A DNA stretch of 33,657 nucleotides from positions 1 to 33,657 of the forward strand of contig VGZI01000053.1 of the NCBI GenBank assembly GCA_016872605.1, written 5' to 3'. The position numbers were made by a program, and so were the translations under genes. The notes beneath the pieces are model-generated. The model worked only from the letters and a program-made list of their open reading frames with translations, was not told the origin of the DNA and ran no database searches. The stretch comes from Planctomycetota bacterium. GTDB taxonomy: Bacteria; Planctomycetota; Planctomycetia; Gemmatales; Gemmataceae. This document shows, in pieces, positions 7,070 through 28,888 of the stretch (positions are counted from its first letter, which is position 1; each line of letters begins with the position of its first letter).

Positions 7070-10000
7070 ATGATGTGGACCGGTAAGCGAATCCTGATAC
7101 TGATAGGTACGCTCGGCGCGAGCTTGATCGCGTTCACGATCTACGCGGTCGTGCTGGGCGGGATCGACGGCGTGCAGCCGTTGCCGGTGAATTATTTGCC
7201 GCAACCGGATGAGGAATGGGTCCCGCCCTTGCCTCCGCCGACCGACAAGTACCTGCAGATGGCGTTCGGCTCCGGCTGTCCGGAATTGCAGCGGCCGTTG
7301 CGTCTCTTCGACCCGGGGCGAGGCATTGCGTTTGTTGCCGGCGAGTGTGTCATCGACAAGGGGAAAGTGCGTCTGGCGCCGTTCAGCGCGGCCGTCTTCC
7401 ACAAGAGCAAGAGCCCCACAGCCCACCCGGAGATCAGCACCATACGCTGCGAAACCGCCCTCCTAACGCTCGATCGTCCGGTAACTCAGTTCGCGGAACT
7501 CTCCAATCGCAAGGTAAAAGTCGTCGAGATGGAAGGCAAACGCATCACGCTCAACAACAACCGCGGCACGATCGAGCAGAACGACGACATCGACGTCCTG
7601 ATCATCAACGGGGCGCTCATCTACGAGGAACGCTACGACTTGATCAAGACCGACGGCGTCGTCTGCCTTACAGATCATCAGGCGAAACCGCCTACGGTCA
7701 TCAGCGGCCACGGGCTAAAGATGTTTCTCTCGAAGGATTCGAGCCCGAATCGGCCCAAGAGCAATCGGCCCAACGCCAAAGGGGACAGCAACGCGGTTGA
7801 GCGCATCCAACTCATGTCCGACGTCGATATGCGCTTCTGGGTCGAGCCCGGATCGGGATTCCTGGGCGGCACCCCGAACGTCAAGAAGGCGCCGACCGTG
7901 ACGCCCACCATCGCCAAGGTCGCGCCGGCCGACAAGGCGCAGATCCACATTCGCACGGCCGGACCGTTCGTCTACGACCTTGTCAAGGAGACGGCCTGGT
8001 TCGAGAGCCCCGCGCGCGACATCAAGCCCGTTCGCGGCGGCGACCGGCCGGGCCAGAACGATCAGGTAAGCGTCGAGCGCATCCAGAAAACCAAAGGCGG
8101 CGAGAAGATCGACCAGCTCACATGCGATCGGCTTGACCTGCAGTTCCGCCGCAAGGTGACGCCCGTTTCGCCTCAAGCCGGCGGCGACAAGGAGATCGAA
8201 ACCGCCCGCGCCACAAGGCGCGACGTCAACCAGGTCGTTTTGGCGCTTGTCAGCGAAGGCATCGACGCCTATGGCAACGAGATGATCTACCGCGCCGGCG
8301 ATCACGGCAACGGACCGCTGACGATCCTGCGCGGCGACCCACTCCTCACTGCCAAGGATGGACACAAGATGGTGTGCAAGGAGCTTCACCTCCACGCCGC
8401 CAATCATCTGGGCGAAGGGCAGAAAGCCTGGGCCAAGGGGCCGGGGCAGATCGACATGCTCGACAGCAAGAATCTCGACAAGAACGTCTTCCCGATGCAC
8501 GTTCTCTGGCGCGACACTCTCGATGTGGTCAAGGTCAAGGAAGGCGGCCAGGTCTTCGATCTTATGACCGTTGTCGGCGAGGCATCGTTCATCGACGACA
8601 TTCAGAAACAGCAGCTTCACGGTGAGAAAATACTGGTCTGGATGTGGCAAGCGCAAGAATCGGAACGCAAAGTGGACGCTACGTTCGCCAATCGCCAGGA
8701 GGTCCGCCGCGTCCTGGCCGTCGATCGCGTTCGGGCGTCGGCGCCGGAATATGTCGTGCGCAAGGCCAATCGTTTGACGATCACGTTTCTGCCAAAACTT
8801 GCGCCCGATCGAGGTCCGACGATGCTGCCAACGTCGATCCAGCCGACGGAAAAAAAGGGCCCCATGGCCATCGTCGACAACGCGGGCACGAAGATCGTCA
8901 AAACCGAGCCGACGGTTGAGGCGAAAAAAGCGCCGCCGATCGAACTTGAAGCCAAAGACATCACCGTTGCCATTGCGGATCTTGGCCCGAAGAAGGACCT
9001 CCAGGAACTCATCGCCAAGGAAAACGTCTACGTCTTTCAACCCGGCGACAAGCCCGGCGAAAAGCGTCTCGACATCACCGGCACGCTCCTCACCGTGCGC
9101 GGCAACGAACAGACACGCACCATGATCGTCTACGGCGAAAAAGATCGCCTCGCCCAGGTCGAAGTCGGCGACACCATCATCTGGGGCCCGGTGGTCATCG
9201 TCAATCAGGCTGACAACAAGGCCGAGGTCGACGGTATGGGCGCCATGGATATGCCCAGCAACAAGAGCGTCGATGGCAGCCCGGCCAGCAAGAAGAACAC
9301 CCGCATCCGCATCGACTGGAAAAAGAACATGACCTTCGACGGCATGTACGCCCGCTTCTACGGCGGCGTCCAGGCCCGCGAGCACGGCGCCCATTCCCGC
9401 GCCTTGTGCGAAATCCTCGAAGCCAAGCTCGACAAGAACATCTCCTTCAAGGACGGGCAGAAGAAGGACGCCGACAATGCCAAAATCGATCGGCTCGTCT
9501 TCGACAAGAATGTGTTTATCGAGGACTACAAGCTCGACGACAAGAAACAGCCGTTGCAGTACAGCAAGTTGCAAGGCTGGGTGCTCATCAACCACGAAGA
9601 AGGGCGGGCACACGTCCGCGGCCCGGGCTGGGTCAAGCTCTTGGCCAAGGGAAGCCCGGATCAGAACTTCGCGCCGGCCGGCCAACCGGGCGTTGTTCAG
9701 AAACCGCCGCCGTCGAAACTCGAATGGAAGCTCACCCACGTCCGCTTCGGGCACAGCATGAATTCGATTCCCAGGCCCGACGGTCGAAAGACGACGTTCT
9801 TCGGCGAGAACGCCGGCGTCGAAGTTTTTCATTTCTCGACGGTCAACATCGACGCGGCCATGAACCCCGATCAGCCTCCGGAGGGGGGGCTGTATCTTCG
9901 CTGCGATGATCTCGTCCTGGAAGGCAAGCAAAATGCCGACCGCACGACGCACATCATGATTGCCACGCGCAACGTCTACTTCCGCACCGATAAGCACGTA

Positions 10001-10195
10001 GGCTACGCCGACATCATGAAGTTTGACGAGGTCAACGATCGCGTCATTCTCGAAGGGGTCAACGGCAACCCCGTGCGGCTCTATGAGGTTAACGGCGACC
10101 GCCTTGTCCCGGCTTCAATCAAATCCAGCAAGGTGCTCTACAATCGCAGGACCGGCCAAATCGACACCGAAGGGGTCAAGTCGATCTCGAACTAG
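7070..10195 (+). CDS. Giant LptC/LptA (OstA)-like envelope protein
   Basis: A 1041-residue protein with an N-terminal membrane anchor (about residues 7-30, hydrophobic, preceded by K/R) and a long extracytoplasmic part. The rest is rich in short alternating beta-strand units with repeated phrases such as IDVLIINGALIYEE, KIDRLVFDKNVFIEDY and TIIWGPVVIVNQA, the pattern of OstA/LptA-LptC beta-jellyroll domains. Position after kdsD-kdsC matches lptC-lptA in proteobacteria, so a role in LPS transport across the periplasm is likely. It is several times longer than LptC or LptA (both under 200 residues). Repeats fill the 196 bp between it and kdsC. Assignment rests on context and fold pattern, not on a conserved motif. 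Confidence 0.55.
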   Translation: MMWTGKRILILIGTLGASLIAFTIYAVVLGGIDGVQPLPVNYLPQPDEEWVPPLPPPTDKYLQMAFGSGCPELQRPLRLFDPGRGIAFVAGECVIDKGKVRLAPFSAAVFHKSKSPTAHPEISTIRCETALLTLDRPVTQFAELSNRKVKVVEMEGKRITLNNNRGTIEQNDDIDVLIINGALIYEERYDLIKTDGVVCLTDHQAKPPTVISGHGLKMFLSKDSSPNRPKSNRPNAKGDSNAVERIQLMSDVDMRFWVEPGSGFLGGTPNVKKAPTVTPTIAKVAPADKAQIHIRTAGPFVYDLVKETAWFESPARDIKPVRGGDRPGQNDQVSVERIQKTKGGEKIDQLTCDRLDLQFRRKVTPVSPQAGGDKEIETARATRRDVNQVVLALVSEGIDAYGNEMIYRAGDHGNGPLTILRGDPLLTAKDGHKMVCKELHLHAANHLGEGQKAWAKGPGQIDMLDSKNLDKNVFPMHVLWRDTLDVVKVKEGGQVFDLMTVVGEASFIDDIQKQQLHGEKILVWMWQAQESERKVDATFANRQEVRRVLAVDRVRASAPEYVVRKANRLTITFLPKLAPDRGPTMLPTSIQPTEKKGPMAIVDNAGTKIVKTEPTVEAKKAPPIELEAKDITVAIADLGPKKDLQELIAKENVYVFQPGDKPGEKRLDITGTLLTVRGNEQTRTMIVYGEKDRLAQVEVGDTIIWGPVVIVNQADNKAEVDGMGAMDMPSNKSVDGSPASKKNTRIRIDWKKNMTFDGMYARFYGGVQAREHGAHSRALCEILEAKLDKNISFKDGQKKDADNAKIDRLVFDKNVFIEDYKLDDKKQPLQYSKLQGWVLINHEEGRAHVRGPGWVKLLAKGSPDQNFAPAGQPGVVQKPPPSKLEWKLTHVRFGHSMNSIPRPDGRKTTFFGENAGVEVFHFSTVNIDAAMNPDQPPEGGLYLRCDDLVLEGKQNADRTTHIMIATRNVYFRTDKHVGYADIMKFDEVNDRVILEGVNGNPVRLYEVNGDRLVPASIKSSKVLYNRRTGQIDTEGVKSISN

Positions 10196-17039: not shown

Positions 17040-17765
17040 TCAGGGTCGGACCGCGGATCGGCATAGTTTAGCGAGGCGGCGCACGCGCTCGGCGCTAACG
17101 CTTGACTCGCGATCCCCGGACTCGCAGGCGGCGCCGCGGACGGCGAACCAATCGGGTTGCGCGGGCAGGAGGCGGCTGATCTCCTCCAGCCCGAGCGAGC
17201 CGGCCAGCGCAATCCTCACGCCCGCCTGCCGCGCCAGGGCACACATCGACTCGACCTCGGCAACGGACAGCCAATCGAGCATCGTCGGCCGTCCCGTCCC
17301 TCGGCCTCGGTCCTTGCAGTGGGTGTCTACCAACAGCATGCTGCCGGGATGGTGACACGCCAGAGCCAACACATCATGGATCGACGGCGCAACGGCGCAC
17401 TGCCAATCGGCGTAGGCGACGAGGACATGCTGCGGCCGGCGTCGCCAATGCTCCCAGCCGTCGCGCCAGTCGCTTCTGCGTTGGCAGCCCGCCAGCCCCC
17501 ATTTCACATAGGTCAAGTCGACGTCGGGGACGTCTTTTGCCGATGCGTCGATCCATTCGCCCAGTGCGGCACTCAGCGGACGGCGTTTTCCGACCGTTTC
17601 CTGGACAGCGCGGATTACAGCATCGTCGGCACGGCCGAGCGGACCACGCGCCGGCTCCTTGATGTCGATCAGGTCCGCTCCTCCGTCCAGCGCCTGCAGC
17701 GCCTCCTCGGCCGACCGCACGCTGACCAACAACCCTGGGCCGGCCCTCGGTGCTTCGTGGTTCAT
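17040..17765 (-). CDS. mfnB: (5-Formylfuran-3-yl)methyl phosphate synthase homologue (MfnB, UPF0264/DUF556)
   Basis: A 241-residue TIM-barrel aldolase-like protein. The opening GLLVSVRSAEEALQALDGGA followed by DLIDIKEPARGPLG is diagnostic; K36 corresponds to the Schiff-base lysine region of MfnB. K88 (YVKWG) and K151 (DTHCKD) are other likely active-site lysines. In methanogens MfnB condenses two glyceraldehyde-3-phosphates into the furan ring of methanofuran. Planctomycetes and methylotrophs with H4MPT/methanofuran-type C1 pathways carry homologues. It overlaps the upstream ASCH gene by 4 nt (ATGA), so the two are translated from one mRNA. No other C1 gene is in the window. Confidence 0.88.
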   Translation of the reverse strand: MNHEAPRAGPGLLVSVRSAEEALQALDGGADLIDIKEPARGPLGRADDAVIRAVQETVGKRRPLSAALGEWIDASAKDVPDVDLTYVKWGLAGCQRRSDWRDGWEHWRRRPQHVLVAYADWQCAVAPSIHDVLALACHHPGSMLLVDTHCKDRGRGTGRPTMLDWLSVAEVESMCALARQAGVRIALAGSLGLEEISRLLPAQPDWFAVRGAACESGDRESSVSAERVRRLAKLCRSAVRP

Positions 17766-18202
17766 TTTCTTGACATGCAGTTGGGTGCCGCTCCGGGTAC
17801 CTTGAAGAAGCGAAACCAGCCGGGGAATTTTTGAAAAGGCAGGATTTCCGGATCAACGAATCGAAAGCCATAAAGCAAGGGCGGCTTGAACCAGCTGGCC
17901 TCGTTAAAGTGTTTCGCCTGGTCCGAAACAAACTCTGTTAGGTCGCGGTACGAGCGACATTCTTCCAGAATGACAGCCCCGATGATGCCCCCCTTGTACT
18001 CGGTCAAAGCCCGGAGATTCTCAGGAACGTGGTTCCACGCCTCGGGTCGTTCATCCGCCACGCCAGCTGCGTGGATCAGGATGCGGCCACGCCGCGCCGT
18101 CGGCCAACGGCGGATTTCGATGGTTTTCACCCCTGCTATCACCAGCGCTGCCCACGGCTGCTTAATCGACAGAGCAAACGCAACATTGGCTGCTGTAATC
18201 AT
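17762..18202 (-). CDS. ASCH-domain protein
   Basis: A 146-residue protein with the ASCH signature ALSIKQPWAALVIAGVKTIE then IRRWPT near the N-terminus. HAAG near residue 45 and GGIIGAVILEECR form the next strands. ASCH domains adopt a PUA-like fold that binds RNA or modified nucleotides; some are cytidine amidohydrolases. The frame is open to an ATG at 18250, but a good promoter ends at 18262, which would leave almost no leader. I therefore prefer the ATG at 18202 (MITAANVAFALS). It overlaps mfnB by 4 nt. Why an RNA-binding-type domain is paired with MfnB is not known. Confidence 0.8.
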   Translation of the reverse strand: MITAANVAFALSIKQPWAALVIAGVKTIEIRRWPTARRGRILIHAAGVADERPEAWNHVPENLRALTEYKGGIIGAVILEECRSYRDLTEFVSDQAKHFNEASWFKPPLLYGFRFVDPEILPFQKFPGWFRFFKVPGAAPNCMSRK

Positions 18203-18261
18203 CGGTCCGTTGCCTCGCCACCACAACGACTCGGCGTGGCCAATCCTCATTACTGTTTCTT

Positions 18262-18387: not shown

Positions 18388-21300
18388 ATGCCCCTACACA
18401 TTGAACCGAATGCTGAGCCCATCCCCGGCTATCGGCTCATTGAACGGCTCGGCAGCGGCGGTTTCGGCGAAGTCTGGAAAGCTGAGGCGCCCGGCGGTCT
18501 GTTCAAAGCGATCAAGTTTGTTCAGCGCAGCGCCGACGACGACTGCGCTGTAAGCATGACTAGCGGCGATCGCTCGCGTGCTGAGCAAGAATGGAAATCT
18601 CTCGGGCGCGTCAAGTCGGTCCGTCATCCGTTCATTCTTCTTCTGGATCGCTTCGAATACATCGACAACTTCCTGGTCATCGTGATGGAGTTGGCGGACC
18701 GCACGCTCGCGGACCGATTCAAAGAATGCCGCTGCCAAGGCCTTCCCGGGATCCCGCGCGATGAACTCTTGAGTTATCTTGCCGAGGCAGCCGAAGTGCT
18801 CGATTTGATGAGCGCCCAGTATCAGTTGCAGCACCTCGACATCAAGCCGCAGAATCTGTTTCTCGTTCACAATCACATCAAGGTTGCCGACTTCGGACTG
18901 GTCAAGGACACCAACAGCGGCGGCAAACTGATGACCATCACCGGCGGCGTCACCCCGGTTTACGCGGCCCCAGAAACATTTGATGGCAAATTCAGCCGGC
19001 AGAGCGACCAATATAGCCTGGCCATCGTCTATCAAGAAATGTTGACGGGACAAAGGCCGTTCACGGGCACGACCATGAAGCAGATGATACTTCAGCACCT
19101 TCAAAATGCCCACGATCTGACGCCGTCGCCGGTGCACGATCGCCCGATCATCGCCCAGGCGTTGTCCAAGAACCCCGATGACCGCCACACAACCTGCAGT
19201 GACCTCATTCAGCATCTGCGCAGGATAACGGTCAAGACCAACGGTTCCGACGTCCCGGCAGCGCCCTTGCCGCTGCCCGTGGAGAAGCCGTTCGCCTCCC
19301 ACAACAAGACGATCGGGGCGCGTGGCGTGTCGGGCCCGGTGGTGCCGGTGGCGCCGAACTTCGCCGTGCATGCCGACCTATTCGTCGGCGGAAAGCCTGA
19401 GCCGCGCGAGCCAGCATTGGACTCGCCCAAGAGCGATCCGGTCAGCCGGACGTCGATTAACGTCTTCGCGCGCAAAGCTGCCGGTCGCGCCGCGCCCGCT
19501 GCCACGCACGAGTTGCCGGGCATCGTCCAGCCGGCCTTGATTGTGGGCATCGGGCATATGGGAGTCGAGACGCTGGTGCAGATGAAGCGACGGCTGGCCA
19601 CAGAGTTTGGACTCGATGCCGCGATCTCGCATCTTCGCATGATCGCCATCGATACCGACCCGGATACGCTGCAAGCCGCGACCGCCGGCATTTCCAGCAC
19701 CACGTTGCGCAACCAGGAAACCTTGCTGACCCGCTTGCAGCGCCCGAGCCATTTTCTCAAGACACGCGACGGCAAACTTCCCACCGATATTTGGCTCAAT
19801 TCCAAACTGCTGCATCGTATCCCGCGCGATCTGAGCAGCGCCGGCCTCAGACCCCTGGGCCGATTGGCGTTCGTCGACAACTACCGCGGCATCGCGCGCC
19901 GACTCGACAGCGAAATCGTTGCTCTGTGCGCGCAAGATACGCCGCATGCGTCAACATCGGTCCTGGACCTAGGGCTGCGCACCGCTCGGCCTCGCGTTTA
20001 TGTTGTGACATCGCTCTCGGGCAACACGGGAAGCGGCATGTTCATCGATGTCGCCTACTTGCTGCGCCAACTCCTCAACGATCACGGGCATGCCGACGCT
20101 GAGATTGTCGGCCTCTTCTACTTGCCATCCGCGCTGCGAACCGCCGGTTCGGCGGCGCCCCTGGCCAATGCCTATGCCGCTCTCACCGAATTGCAGTTCT
20201 ACACTCAGCCGAATGCGATCTTCTCGGCAAACTACGAAACGGCGGCGTCAGGCCGCGGCGAGCGCGTCAGCACCGTCGGCCCGGCGTTCCAACGCTGCAT
20301 GCTTCTGCCGCTGACTGAGCCGAGAGGTAAGCTCTCCAACGCCGACAATAGCCAAGCCACCGGGCGCGCCGGCGATTTTCTCTATCGCGACCTGACGACG
20401 GTGCTCGGCCAGGCCATCGACGAACGACGGGCGCGCCTCGCCGCGCCGAGCGCCGCCGGCGCCGGCCCCTTGCTGCAATCCATCGGCATGTCGCGCATCC
20501 TCTGGCCTCGCCATGCTCTGGTGTCCGAAAGCGGACGCTGGTTGAGCATTCAACTCGTGAAGCGCTGGATGAGCAAAGACGCCTCGTCGTTCGTGAGCAC
20601 GATTCAACAATGGGCGCAGGAACGCTGGGAATCGATCGGCATGAGGCCCGAAAGCCTCATCGAATGCTTCCAAACAAAAACCGAGCACGCGTTGCAGCAA
20701 AAGCCAGATTCACTTTTCGCCGATGTCGTCGCCACGCTAAAGAAGGGGCTTGCCGACGCGTCTCGCAGCGTGACTACTTTGACCACCGTGGTTCCGGTCG
20801 TGCAAGCAATGGATTGCCTGGAGCGCATCCTCGGCATACCCGACGATGCACGCACCACGCACCCCGATCCTTCGATGATCGAACGCTCGCTGGACAACAT
20901 CGTCCATGAAATCACCGACGAGTGCGAGCAGAAGCTGGCGGAGTTGGCCGTTTCACTCCTGGAGGACCCGAATTATCGTCTGGCGGGCGCCGAGGAAGCG
21001 CTGCGGCAGTTTTGCCTGACCGTGGAACAGTCGCTGCAATCGCAGGAAACGCTGGCGAAGGAACTCAGCGACAATGCCAGTCAGCTCTACCAGCGAATTC
21101 GCAGGTGCATCGACACCTCGGTGCAGACCAACGCCCCGACCACGAGCCAATGGACGCTTATCGCTCGCCGCAACGCTTCGGGAACGGGATTGCCGAACGC
21201 CAACGACATGGTCGAGCTTGTGCGCACCTACGCGAAAATGCGCTACCACAGCATGGTGCTCGCGCATCTGAACCGTCTCTATATCGGCTTGCGCGGGCAT

Positions 21301-22065
21301 CTTTCGGATCAGATTCGCGAAGTCGGTTTTTGCCGGGCACGGCTCGGCGAGTTGCTGTCGCTCTTGCAGCCGACCGCTTCGAACCTGTCCGATGGTTCGC
21401 TGCGCGGCGACCGATCGCTATTTCCGCCGGGCTGCCTCGATCTCCGAGCCGCCATCGACCAACTCACCTCGACGATCACGACCGATGAAATCCTGCAACT
21501 CGACGACCGTGTTCAGGAGTGGCTCAAAACGCACTGCCAGGCGCTCCTCGAAGTCTGCATGGGTTCCGGCACAATGGTGCGCAATCTGGCGCCGGCCCTC
21601 TTGCGAGAGGCCGAGGTATTCATGAGCGAGCGGCTACATGGCGCATCGGTCGCGGAAATGTACTTGACCCGCAAGCGCAATGAGTTCAACGACAACTCCG
21701 ACGCCTTGATCGCCGACGAGTTGCAACACCTCTTCGACGACGCGACGCCGGACTTCGGCCGCATCGTGGATTCGAACGAAGTCTCCGTCATTTGCCTGCC
21801 CGATGACGCAGCAGGCCAGCAATTGCACCAACTGCTGCAACCGCAGTTGCCGAACGCCAAATTCCTCCTGACGGATCGGGCTGACGAAATGACATTCTAT
21901 CACGAGCTCAACAATCTCAAGTGGGAAGACCTTCCCCAGTTGGGCCCGAACGGCCGATCGGCCTATCAGCAACGCTGCACCGCCGACCCCGGTTCGCTTC
22001 ACAGCCGCGAAGATGTGTTCGAGTGGCAGGCGCTAGTGCTCTGTCACATCTCGAATGAGGGGTAG
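18388..22065 (+). CDS. Ser/Thr protein kinase fused to a tubulin/FtsZ-like GTPase domain
   Basis: A 1225-residue fusion. The kinase domain (about 15-282) has the P-loop GSGGFG (22-27), K43, catalytic HLDIKPQN (149-156, D151), DFG (168-170) and APE (194-196), so it looks active. A proline-rich linker (about 284-378) leads to a domain starting PALIVGIGHMGVETL (382-396) and carrying VVTSLSGNTGSGMFIDV, where GNTGSG (545-550) matches the tubulin/FtsZ GGGTGSG phosphate loop; this fits the Tubulin_2 (PF13809) class. A long helical C-terminal part (about 740-1200) follows. No transmembrane segment is seen. The last ten residues and the stop come from the 140-bp family B element. Function is unknown; kinase-regulated filament formation is a hypothesis. 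Confidence 0.85.
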   Translation: MPLHIEPNAEPIPGYRLIERLGSGGFGEVWKAEAPGGLFKAIKFVQRSADDDCAVSMTSGDRSRAEQEWKSLGRVKSVRHPFILLLDRFEYIDNFLVIVMELADRTLADRFKECRCQGLPGIPRDELLSYLAEAAEVLDLMSAQYQLQHLDIKPQNLFLVHNHIKVADFGLVKDTNSGGKLMTITGGVTPVYAAPETFDGKFSRQSDQYSLAIVYQEMLTGQRPFTGTTMKQMILQHLQNAHDLTPSPVHDRPIIAQALSKNPDDRHTTCSDLIQHLRRITVKTNGSDVPAAPLPLPVEKPFASHNKTIGARGVSGPVVPVAPNFAVHADLFVGGKPEPREPALDSPKSDPVSRTSINVFARKAAGRAAPAATHELPGIVQPALIVGIGHMGVETLVQMKRRLATEFGLDAAISHLRMIAIDTDPDTLQAATAGISSTTLRNQETLLTRLQRPSHFLKTRDGKLPTDIWLNSKLLHRIPRDLSSAGLRPLGRLAFVDNYRGIARRLDSEIVALCAQDTPHASTSVLDLGLRTARPRVYVVTSLSGNTGSGMFIDVAYLLRQLLNDHGHADAEIVGLFYLPSALRTAGSAAPLANAYAALTELQFYTQPNAIFSANYETAASGRGERVSTVGPAFQRCMLLPLTEPRGKLSNADNSQATGRAGDFLYRDLTTVLGQAIDERRARLAAPSAAGAGPLLQSIGMSRILWPRHALVSESGRWLSIQLVKRWMSKDASSFVSTIQQWAQERWESIGMRPESLIECFQTKTEHALQQKPDSLFADVVATLKKGLADASRSVTTLTTVVPVVQAMDCLERILGIPDDARTTHPDPSMIERSLDNIVHEITDECEQKLAELAVSLLEDPNYRLAGAEEALRQFCLTVEQSLQSQETLAKELSDNASQLYQRIRRCIDTSVQTNAPTTSQWTLIARRNASGTGLPNANDMVELVRTYAKMRYHSMVLAHLNRLYIGLRGHLSDQIREVGFCRARLGELLSLLQPTASNLSDGSLRGDRSLFPPGCLDLRAAIDQLTSTITTDEILQLDDRVQEWLKTHCQALLEVCMGSGTMVRNLAPALLREAEVFMSERLHGASVAEMYLTRKRNEFNDNSDALIADELQHLFDDATPDFGRIVDSNEVSVICLPDDAAGQQLHQLLQPQLPNAKFLLTDRADEMTFYHELNNLKWEDLPQLGPNGRSAYQQRCTADPGSLHSREDVFEWQALVLCHISNEG

Positions 22066-25514: not shown

Positions 25515-25621
25515 GAACGGAACAAAACCGTCCGAGCGTCCCAATATCTATATGGTAGCGTCCGGTGTCAAGTACTCATGGGGCATGACGGCGGGCATGA
25601 TGTCCTAACGTGAGGCAACCT

Positions 25622-28600
25622 ATGGCGTTCAATCCGTTCGTCACCTTTCAGAAGAACAAACGCTTCTGGATGGCCGCCATCTTGATGATCTGCATGGTCA
25701 GCTTCGTCTTCTGCACCGGCATGCGCGGCGATATGTCCGAACGCATTCCTCAATGGTTCGGGTTCGGCAAAGGCGGCGGCAGCGTCGTTCGCATCGCAGG
25801 GCGAACGTACACCCGCAAAGACCTCGAAGACGTAAAAAGCCAACGCAATCTCGCCAATGCTTACATGCGCCACTGCAATGAAAGCGCCTATCGCAATGCC
25901 GACAAGGCCTACTTCGACGAGATCAGGAAAGAAGAGGAAGCCGAGAACAGAGCCGAGCGGCTCACTGAGCTTTCCAAACGGCTTCGCACCTTGGGCATTC
26001 GCAAACTACGGCCCCGTTACTTCGACGGCGATGTCAAGTATCGCGATCTTGAGGAATTTTTGCTCTGGCGGGCCGAGGCGGACCGTCTGAGTATTCGCAT
26101 CGATGACGAGCATCTGAAGCATCTCTTCCATGGCGAATTCTTCGACATGCTGCGGCCTGAAGACAGATCCAACGCCGAGCTCGAGGCACGCCGCGCCGGG
26201 GATCACCGTGATGCGACCCCTGAGCAGGTTCGCCAGGCGGTAGCCGACGAATTCCGCGTGCGCATCGCTCAGTACGCGGTGTTCACTGCCCAGCCGTATT
26301 CGTTTTTCCAGCGCAAGGATCGCCGCCTTTTGGACGGAAAGTTCCTCGATCCGAACATGCCGGACCAGCAGCGGGCGCTGATGACGTTGGCGCAAATTTG
26401 GGATTTCTACAAGGAAAAACGCTCCGCGTTCACGGTGAAGTTCACGCCGGTCTATGTGGAGGACTTCGCGCTGAACAAATTCTTCGACCCCAAGGCGAAG
26501 GACGCGAAATCGTTTTTGAACAAGAAGATCGAAGATCCCGATCCGCAGCTTCTGCGGGATTTCTTCGACGCCCACAAGAACGAAGCGTACGATCCGACGT
26601 CGTCGGGCTGGGGATTGGAAACGCCGGTGAAGATCAAGGTCGAGTATCTGTACGCCGATCCGAAGTCACCGGAATACCTTGGCGTTGCGGCGACGCTGGC
26701 GCAACTCAGCGTGACGCCGCCGCTCGTGTATGATCCGTTCCAGTCGCCGCTCGTGGCGGTAATCCGCCACGGCGCCTTGGAGAGTGACTATCGCCACAAG
26801 CTGGAAGCCCAGTACGAAGCGGTCAGAAAGAAAGAGCGTTACGACTCCGCGTCGCCGCTGATGACCAAAGACTACGCGACGCCCGTTCTGGAATATTTCG
26901 CCGTGCGGCATACCGAGGCGGCGGCAAGCTTGGTCGGCGCGGGAGCGATGGGCTCGCTAATGGGCGGTGGGACCTTCGCCGTTAGCGGAGACGCTGGCTT
27001 CCGAACCTGGGGAATGATCCAGCACCCGCTGGTAGGCGAGCCCGCCCCGCATCCAGAAAAGAAAGACGTCACGGTGCTGACGAAGCTCAAATCCAATACG
27101 TCGTACAACTTCGGCACGCCGGACGATTCCAAGAAACTCGATCCCAAAGCCAAGGGATGGGACTTGGCGGACCCGGATCTGGTTCTAAGGGAACTGGATG
27201 TCGCGCTGCGTTCCGAGGCCAAACGTCGCAACCTCAACTTCTTCACAAGTCCGGAGTTTACTCGGTATAACCGATGGAAGTACGCGGGCATGGTGGGCAC
27301 GGGCGCGACCGGTTCGCCGCTCGACGTGGGAGCGGCCTTCCTGCACTTCGATCCTGTGTTTGAGCCGCAAAATCACACCGTCGACACGGTGCGGCGCGAG
27401 CTGGAATCGATGCTCGATCATCGCACCGCCGAGCGCTGGGCGCAGGAGAACATGTGGAATGCCAAGAGAGACCTCGAGGCGGCCAGCGGCGATGCGTCCA
27501 AGTACAAACGCGAATTGAAGATCATCGTCCCAAAATACAATCTCGTCTACGGCCCACCCGAGGACAAGAAGGGGAATTACTACGACCAGTTCTCGATCGG
27601 CGCCGCGCCGGAATTCGCGGGACTTAAGGAATCGTACTTGAAGTACATGCATCAGATCAATCTCTTCGAGGGACGCGACACGCCGGACCGCCAGTTGACC
27701 GAGAAGGACTTTCACAAGCTGTTCTTCGGGGAAGCGGCATTCGTCGCCTCGGGAAAATTCGACGCCAAGCCTTGGCCTCCGGAGGTGAAAGCCAATCGGA
27801 CGCGCGACTTCCGATTTGTCGAGCCGCGTTTAAGCCGAGGCGTGACGCTACAAGCATGGGAGGAGCTCCGCAAGCACGTCGAAGGGCTCGATCCGACGCA
27901 GCCGGTGCCGAGCCTTGATCTTTTTCGCACGGCTCAAAAGCCGATGCTCTATTGGCGCACGGCCGTCATCCCCGCGCGGCGCGAGAACGACTATCGAAAG
28001 ATCGTTGATGACCTGCGTGCCATCGACGATCTGCGTCGCGCGCGTGCCGGCCTGGTCATTCTCGAAACGCTCGGCCGGGCGCTGGGCATCGATGGCCCTG
28101 AAAAGCTTTTGCGCGACCGTGCGGCGCAAATTGCCGTCAACGAGGCTCAACTTGAAAAAGACGAGGCCGACTTCCGCTTCATCGAGAATCGCGTGTTCGA
28201 GGGGCTCAAGTTCAAGCGTGCCCGCGAAGAGGCCGCCCTGCCGCATGCCAAAGCGCTCGCGCTCGAGTTGATCGACGTCAAAGACATCAAGGCCCGCGTC
28301 ACGCTCATGGAAAAGCACGCTGCCACCATGCGGCGGTCCACGATCGACATTCCGAATCTCACGGAGATGCACGCGGAGGACATCCTGCGCACCGAGGATA
28401 CCAACACCGGTGAAGTTCGCATGCCCAACAAGGACTATTTCCTGCCGTCTCTGGCAGACGGGACCATTATGTTCCCGCATGACAAGACGGTTGAGCAACT
28501 GATCAGCTTGCACGGCCTGAAAAAGCCGATCGAAGTCGGGACGCGGGAAATCGACGACATCAACAAAGATCTTTTCGAGAAGGCCAAGAAGAATAACCAG

Positions 28601-28888
28601 CCGGACGGCTACGTGCAAATCCTGACCAACAAGCCGCGCACCATTTTTTATGTCGCCACGATCACCGAAGGCCCGACGACGAACGATGCCGGGTTCGTTC
28701 GTTCGATGAGCGGCGCCAGTTCGATAGCCGGCGTCCTGCAAGGGCATCGCGACCTCTTCATCGAACGGGCGCAAAAAGCGCACGCGGAGCAGTATCGCCA
28801 GGCAATGCTCACCAGCTTGCGCATCACGCACGACTACAAGCTGATCGGCCCCGAGCTAGTTCGTCAAATCGACGGCGAACGCGAGTAG
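25622..28888 (+). CDS. Giant membrane-anchored SurA/PpiD-like periplasmic protein
   Basis: A 1088-residue protein. The ATG at 25622 has TGAGG six bases upstream. Residues 15-33 form one transmembrane anchor after FQKNKRFW, the topology of PpiD (short cytoplasmic start, large periplasmic body). The region after it (VVRIAGRTYTRKDLEDVKSQ) resembles the SurA/PpiD N-terminal chaperone domain. The remainder is highly charged and helical. I cannot find a parvulin (PpiC) signature, so isomerase activity is not supported. A role as a periplasmic folding factor is inferred from layout only. It stands alone between topA (divergent) and a convergent methyltransferase. Confidence 0.55.
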   Translation: MAFNPFVTFQKNKRFWMAAILMICMVSFVFCTGMRGDMSERIPQWFGFGKGGGSVVRIAGRTYTRKDLEDVKSQRNLANAYMRHCNESAYRNADKAYFDEIRKEEEAENRAERLTELSKRLRTLGIRKLRPRYFDGDVKYRDLEEFLLWRAEADRLSIRIDDEHLKHLFHGEFFDMLRPEDRSNAELEARRAGDHRDATPEQVRQAVADEFRVRIAQYAVFTAQPYSFFQRKDRRLLDGKFLDPNMPDQQRALMTLAQIWDFYKEKRSAFTVKFTPVYVEDFALNKFFDPKAKDAKSFLNKKIEDPDPQLLRDFFDAHKNEAYDPTSSGWGLETPVKIKVEYLYADPKSPEYLGVAATLAQLSVTPPLVYDPFQSPLVAVIRHGALESDYRHKLEAQYEAVRKKERYDSASPLMTKDYATPVLEYFAVRHTEAAASLVGAGAMGSLMGGGTFAVSGDAGFRTWGMIQHPLVGEPAPHPEKKDVTVLTKLKSNTSYNFGTPDDSKKLDPKAKGWDLADPDLVLRELDVALRSEAKRRNLNFFTSPEFTRYNRWKYAGMVGTGATGSPLDVGAAFLHFDPVFEPQNHTVDTVRRELESMLDHRTAERWAQENMWNAKRDLEAASGDASKYKRELKIIVPKYNLVYGPPEDKKGNYYDQFSIGAAPEFAGLKESYLKYMHQINLFEGRDTPDRQLTEKDFHKLFFGEAAFVASGKFDAKPWPPEVKANRTRDFRFVEPRLSRGVTLQAWEELRKHVEGLDPTQPVPSLDLFRTAQKPMLYWRTAVIPARRENDYRKIVDDLRAIDDLRRARAGLVILETLGRALGIDGPEKLLRDRAAQIAVNEAQLEKDEADFRFIENRVFEGLKFKRAREEAALPHAKALALELIDVKDIKARVTLMEKHAATMRRSTIDIPNLTEMHAEDILRTEDTNTGEVRMPNKDYFLPSLADGTIMFPHDKTVEQLISLHGLKKPIEVGTREIDDINKDLFEKAKKNNQPDGYVQILTNKPRTIFYVATITEGPTTNDAGFVRSMSGASSIAGVLQGHRDLFIERAQKAHAEQYRQAMLTSLRITHDYKLIGPELVRQIDGERE

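Follow-up and report, generated by a model that had tools for sequence, protein, structure and literature searches.

How planctomycetes without FtsZ organise their cells and bring about division is an open question, and it is one on which a family of proteins fusing a Hanks-type serine/threonine kinase to a tubulin/FtsZ-like domain bears. The member considered here is encoded at positions 18388–22065 (+ strand) of a 33,657-nucleotide stretch of DNA, hereafter the window (Planctomycetota bacterium, family Gemmataceae; GenBank assembly GCA_016872605.1, contig VGZI01000053.1). The protein is a real, conserved member of a known, poorly understood kind, and we read it, with moderate confidence, as a planctomycete-type FtsZ-like 1 protein with a built-in kinase that serves as a soluble, kinase-regulated, nucleotide-binding scaffold. 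A single chain keeps a tubulin fold, intact T1–T4 loops and an apparently active kinase, and in part of the family's range the gene adjoins that of a condensin subunit. The gene and its parts are:

18388–22065, + strand: kinase–FtsZ-like 1 (FtsZl1) fusion gene, clade A copy, 1225 residues; one open frame of 1225 codons, from a family of 88 open reading frames (ORFs)
18430–19215, + strand: Hanks-type Ser/Thr kinase domain, residues 15–276, of non-RD type (H-L-D at 149–151); PF00069, E 5.2e-31, with conserved catalytic residues
19216–19536, + strand: variable proline/alanine-rich linker, residues 277–383, without family match
19537–20520, + strand: Tubulin_2/FtsZ-like-1 domain, residues 384–711; PF13809, E 2.3e-39, fold match to CetZ/FtsZ/tubulin, FtsZ profile match over T1–T4
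19546–19563, + strand: T1 loop GIGHMG, residues 387–392, aligning with GVGGGG of FtsZ
20020–20037, + strand: T4 loop GNTGSG, residues 545–550, aligning with GGTGTG of FtsZ; G550 in 88/88
20521–22062, + strand: C-terminal region, mostly helical in the AlphaFold2 model, where it shows two long helices (~864–913 and ~938–993) and a small alpha/beta end; no Pfam match over cut-off

The initial annotation, made from the letters alone, had described one 1225-residue protein composed of a kinase and a tubulin/FtsZ-like domain. Indeed, the ORF (start ATG at 18388, stop at 22063–22065), its strand and length and both Pfam domains agree with this description: the kinase domain scored 108 bits against a cut-off of 31.7 and the Tubulin_2 domain 136 bits against 27. 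The assignment of the second half to the two Pfam tubulin families came out divided, with PF13809 clearly matched and the FtsZ/tubulin family PF00091, at 19.7 bits, under its cut-off of 33. No membrane-helix-like stretch was found in the fusion protein, the highest 19-residue Kyte–Doolittle mean being 1.47.

Conservation was assessed in an alignment of 88 homologous ORFs (80 regions around PF13809 matches, a few matches being omitted, plus the window), where each per-site denominator is the number of rows reaching that site. The VAIK-type lysine, the alpha-C glutamate, the catalytic aspartate and asparagine and the DFG motif are all present in the fusion kinase, and D151, N156, DFG (168–170) and APE (194–196) lie where the annotation had placed them in its complete Hanks-type kinase. 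Across relatives these residues are nearly invariant (K43 82/82, E68 81/82, D151 81/82, N156 82/82, D168 82/82), and so is L150 (80/82), which makes H-L-D rather than H-R-D, and hence the non-RD type, the rule in this family. Judged by its residues, the kinase looks active. A divergent copy at locus L081 (6899–10339) carries a degenerate kinase, with H-G-R for H-L-D and D-W-G for D-F-G, and looks like a pseudokinase–tubulin. In the tubulin half, the glycine-rich first loop and GNTGSG were likewise found at the positions claimed for them. The T1 glycines are conserved in 83/87, 87/87 (G389) and 83/87 rows, and the outer glycines of T4 in 85/88 (G545) and 88/88 (G550), so that the T4 loop is kept in relatives; its commonest letters are GGTGSG, and the window's own GNTGSG is rarer, N546 occurring in 4/88.

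An AlphaFold2 model of residues 378–1225, built from an 84-row alignment, was of high quality (mean predicted local distance difference test score 90.6, predicted template modelling score 0.85). Compared with the Protein Data Bank (PDB) using Foldseek, it gave 75 matches at E <=0.001, and the 50 listed were all CetZ, FtsZ, TubZ, tubulin or tubulin-containing complexes, which bears out the suspected tubulin fold. The best was the CetZ structure 3zid (E 3.9e-6, target template modelling (TM) score 0.49), and target TM scores of the matches were ~0.4–0.5. The predicted long helical tail also appeared in the model, with helices covering most of residues 708–1118, the longest spanning 56 residues; among the 50 matches listed this tail had no match of its own. 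Searching solved structures by sequence with the family profile returned nothing better than weak matches, the top one at E 0.0015, and most of them were to helical segments in unrelated proteins. Against a profile of ten FtsZ proteins drawn from Armatimonadota and cyanobacteria, the family profile aligned over T1, the T2 region, T3 and T4 (E 1.4e-5, probability 80).

How widely is this architecture spread, and how old is it? We searched 59 genomes, i.e. the window's own and 58 relatives, for PF13809 and found it in 44: in 32/37 of the same family, 7/7 of a second family of the order and 5/15 elsewhere in the class. Within the window's order, 39 of the 44 genomes searched thus encode such a protein. 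In a phylum-wide draw counted by PF13809 alone, irrespective of the kinase, 18 of 244 genomes had a match, 15 of them over the cut-off; this draw came mostly from other orders, the window's own genome being the sole member of its family among the matches. A scan of named genomes yielded 263 relatives, from which 78 loci were retained, including those of Zavarzinella formosa, Limnoglobus roseus, Gemmata sp. IIL30 and Planctomycetes bacterium Pan216. Both locus sets, pooled and freed of duplicates by their last 300 residues, gave 137 distinct planctomycete genes, a few of them from records with titles as vague as 'Bacterium'. The kinase is present in 132 of these. Four of the five kinase-less copies begin at a contig end and are hence cut. 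The remaining one (L046, 5233–8778, in genome G036 of the window's family) is a kinase-less Tubulin_2 protein with 5.2 kb of upstream sequence, in a genome that also has fused copies; the gene after it shows a weak Hsp70-type match. By comparison, the kinase is absent from all 14 copies retrieved from Armatimonadota and cyanobacteria. One planctomycete-type fusion gene sits in a 50878-base record titled Bacteroidales bacterium (L160), a name that is probably wrong.

Trees of the kinase and tubulin domains agree (matrix correlation r 0.70 over 128 genes, reached in 0/500 permutations), and the best split of the kinase tree gathers all 130 fusion kinases used together with two other ORFs. The latter (L109, 4375–5616; L142, 3850–4845) each begin shortly after a fusion gene and extend as far as the contig end, and are probably truncated second fusion copies. 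The pattern fits a single old kinase–tubulin fusion followed by joint descent, although the kinase clade is weakly supported (0.59) and the kinase of the divergent copy L081 is degenerate. A quick tree of 84 proteins (84 of the 88 rows, four fragments being excluded) resolved two deep paralogue lineages, A, which contains the window gene, and B, which holds L032, that genome's other copy.

That FtsZ is lacking, as the initial annotation had supposed for most planctomycetes, was borne out in the genomes searched: PF00091 found no FtsZ in the window's genome, and over the 59-genome set its one match was the fusion protein itself in G007, leaving no canonical FtsZ, while the same search was positive in 13 of 14 control genomes. 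The genomes of kinase-less family members, of which 10 of 14 such loci were taken, had FtsZ in 10/10 cases, as against 0/4 of the fusion-bearing named planctomycetes. The annotation's further suggestion, that an alternative tubulin is of interest here on account of the missing FtsZ, fared less well, the tie being weakened by the patchy phylum-wide spread (15/244) and, within the window's own genus, by genomes without an A copy.

Neighbouring genes were defined as mechanically called ORFs beginning at their first start codons, and the 49 genes from locus L113 onward were given clade labels by best BLAST hit rather than by tree. The window's fusion gene is flanked by ASCH, MfnB-like and topA genes, of which the first two are conserved neighbours:

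17762–18250, − strand: ASCH-domain protein, divergent, 138 bp from the fusion gene; PF04266, E 3.6e-8
17040–17765, − strand: MfnB-like 4-(hydroxymethyl)-2-furancarboxaldehyde-phosphate synthase, overlapping the ASCH gene; PF04476, E 8.3e-52, under the NCBIfam equivalog cut-offs

Counting only genes that come first in their row and have at least 1.6 kb of upstream sequence (17 clade-A genes behind another fusion gene being excluded), a divergent mfnB and/or ASCH gene lies within 2.5 kb of 43/64 clade-A genes versus 0/32 clade-B genes. Within clade A this amounts to 15/30 in the window's group, 25/28 in subgroup A1 and 3/6 in the second family. At two loci checked, genes beyond mfnB/ASCH match Hydantoinase_A (over the cut-off) and AA_kinase (just under it), which we take to be typical of methanofuran-type cofactor clusters. 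The functional reason why the overlapping MfnB-like/ASCH pair (17040–18250, − strand) is kept beside many clade-A fusions is not obvious.

Nine fusion genes are followed within 1 kb, on their own strand, by the gene for the condensin subunit ScpA (8/44 testable clade-A genes, 1/30 in subgroup A1, 0/6 in the second family and 0/34 in clade B). The gap is below 200 bases in eight of the nine and 865 in L118; in 49 of 50 relatives having scpA, it is a single match. Most simply, the two genes were linked once in an ancestor and many lines have since lost the linkage; because that is the simplest account, the arrangement is a hint of joint function and not proof of it. Fusion genes also stand head to tail with one another in 17 pairs, and in 11 of these 0 to 217 bases separate the two genes; two of the 17 gaps (−3585 and −471) are artefacts of the mechanical first-start calls. 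The window's fusion gene has no tandem partner.

Other observations concern the surroundings. A separate kinase gene precedes the clade-B fusion gene on the same strand at L070, L111, L045, L095 and L048. A 1092-residue ORF of the window (25610–28888, + strand) without Pfam or NCBIfam match recurs, together with topA, beside the clade-B fusion gene in two genomes of the same genus (L037, L039), and a 1041-residue ORF (7070–10195, + strand) has no Pfam match at E 0.1. Scanning around the fusion gene for promoters and terminators gave nothing beyond chance (one promoter-like sequence versus 1.7 expected; three terminator-like versus 6.0).

Taken together, the scaffold reading is supported because both domains lie over their Pfam cut-offs, the second half has a tubulin fold and matches the FtsZ profile over T1–T4, and the kinase residues are intact; it is further supported by the agreement of kinase and tubulin trees, the near-constant presence of the kinase, the absence of membrane-helix-like stretches, the nine scpA neighbours and the 17 tandem pairs. 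The tubulin fold would bind GTP or GDP through T1–T4, and the helical tail would mediate assembly or partner binding. The protein's own kinase would then phosphorylate the scaffold or bound partners, switching assembly on or off. More tentatively, the scpA link found in some genera, together with tandem copies that may pair with each other, hints at a part for the A lineage in organising the chromosome or the cell. Several observations weigh against the scaffold. The FtsZ profile alignment ends after S5, and neither the H7 helix nor the T7 catalytic loop was identified; in FtsZ, T7 completes the GTPase site in filaments and drives GTP hydrolysis and polymer turnover. Similarly, passages of Makarova and Koonin (2010; PMC2875224) report no recognisable T6–H7–T7 in FtsZ-like 1 and allow that filaments are perhaps not formed. 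No copy was found in 5/37 genomes of the window's family, and among seven genomes of its genus, three have an A copy (G000–G002), three B alone (G003–G005) and one none (G006), so that either cells can do without the fusion or the assemblies have gaps. Finally, the scpA link is confined to the nine genes, and the window genome's own scpA lies on another contig.

The main rival, which we consider possible but rather unlikely, is that the protein is a kinase for signalling and that its tubulin-fold half never builds filaments, acting only as a docking platform or as a switch that senses nucleotides. It would account for the failure to identify T7 and H7, a structural match limited to the tubulin fold at target TM ~0.4–0.5 and a long tail without match of its own among the fold matches listed; yet the T1–T4 loops are conserved just as they are in relatives that polymerise, and the long helices and tandem pairs suggest structural assembly. 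That the fusion is instead the core of the membrane-remodelling system of vWA, GTPase and OmpA-like proteins proposed in PMC2875224 is improbable in our estimate. It concerns the same family, PF13809, kinases are frequent operon partners there, and it is the sole published prediction we found; in contrast, neither vWA nor OmpA ranked in the top 25 Pfam families of the neighbour ORFs (114 in clade A, 96 in clade B) or occurred in the 28 window ORFs scanned against Pfam, and the recurring neighbours are instead mfnB, ASCH, scpA, kinases and M41 peptidases. These 25 are the most frequent of 180 families (clade A) and 170 (clade B), so rarer vWA/OmpA cases are possible, and the neighbour ORFs, picked by length, perhaps include non-genes. 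We set the vWA/OmpA system aside as not seen among common fusion neighbours. A bolder proposal, to which we give only slight credence, is that in FtsZ-less Gemmata-type planctomycetes paired A1 and A2 proteins (head to tail, scpA next in some genera) form a two-component, phosphorylation-gated cytoskeleton coupling SMC–ScpA chromosome condensation to cell division or nucleoid shape; its chances are lowered because A copies are missing in the window's genus. Least probable of all, and very much so, is that the fusion replaces FtsZ as the division cytoskeleton. The lack of canonical FtsZ in the window's genome and the 59-genome set favours this, as does the split between hosts of unfused members (10/10 with FtsZ) and named fusion planctomycetes (0/4). 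But with a match in 18/244 phylum genomes, 15 over the cut-off, most of those sampled must divide without the fusion, and within the window's own family no copy was seen in 5/37 genomes; FtsZ loss therefore does not require the fusion protein, and this patchy spread rules out replacement across the phylum as a general claim. Passages of PMC2875224 also deem a direct division role unlikely for the family, given its usual coexistence with FtsZ, reasoning that does not extend to hosts without FtsZ. A defence role was rejected as well: the best 25 PADLOC matches (top mad6 and PD-T4-6) all fall in the kinase half and mean merely 'Hanks kinase'.

The architecture itself is not new, having been in print since 2010: excerpts of PMC2875224 describe four FtsZ-like proteins of planctomycetes that carry an additional kinase at the N terminus, point out vertical descent of FtsZ-like 1 in Planctomycetes, and state that most family operons pair it with a vWA protein, a GTPase or an OmpA-like protein, kinases being frequent partners too. 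Passages of PMC9871819 repeat this account and separate the group from FtsZ and tubulin proper, and those of PMC4672568 list FtsZl1 in Gemmata massiliana. The fusion was not met in the passages that few-term look-ups returned from papers on division in planctomycetes and the Planctomycetes–Verrucomicrobia–Chlamydiae (PVC) group (PMC6952346, PMC5147048, PMC12283558), and no experimental report on it was found, by title and abstract start, among the papers listed from the literature outside subscription. What is added here is the near-universal kinase in planctomycete copies, the two paralogue lineages, the tandem pairs and the mfnB/ASCH and scpA neighbours; some of these contexts may already be known, the comparison covering PMC2875224 apart from its supplements. 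The interest of the family lies in its open function and in a tie to how bacteria without FtsZ organise their chromosomes, a tie that is still weak but testable, and direct tests are possible in cultured or named hosts such as Zavarzinella formosa, Limnoglobus roseus and Gemmata sp. IIL30.

Set beside known systems, the fusion protein shares with FtsZ, CetZ and tubulin (PF00091) the tubulin fold, by model comparison, and the T1–T4 loops, by profile match, but differs in having its T2 region set apart from T4 by a long insert, in the added kinase, in a PF00091 score under the cut-off and in that T7 was not identified. With PknB-like Hanks-type kinases it has all catalytic motifs in common, the best NCBIfam profile being of PknB type, though far under the equivalog cut-off; it departs from them in reading H-L-D instead of H-R-D and in being joined to a tubulin-fold protein. 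In PknB, the kinase is joined to a membrane anchor and sensor. The closest counterpart is the planctomycete branch of FtsZ-like 1, as excerpted in PMC2875224, with the same order of kinase, FtsZ-like domain and helical C-terminus, the same T1 and T4 and the same vertical descent; no T6–H7–T7 was recognised in either. In contrast to the vWA/GTPase/OmpA operons described for that family, the genes studied here keep company with mfnB/ASCH, sometimes with scpA, and with each other in tandem pairs.

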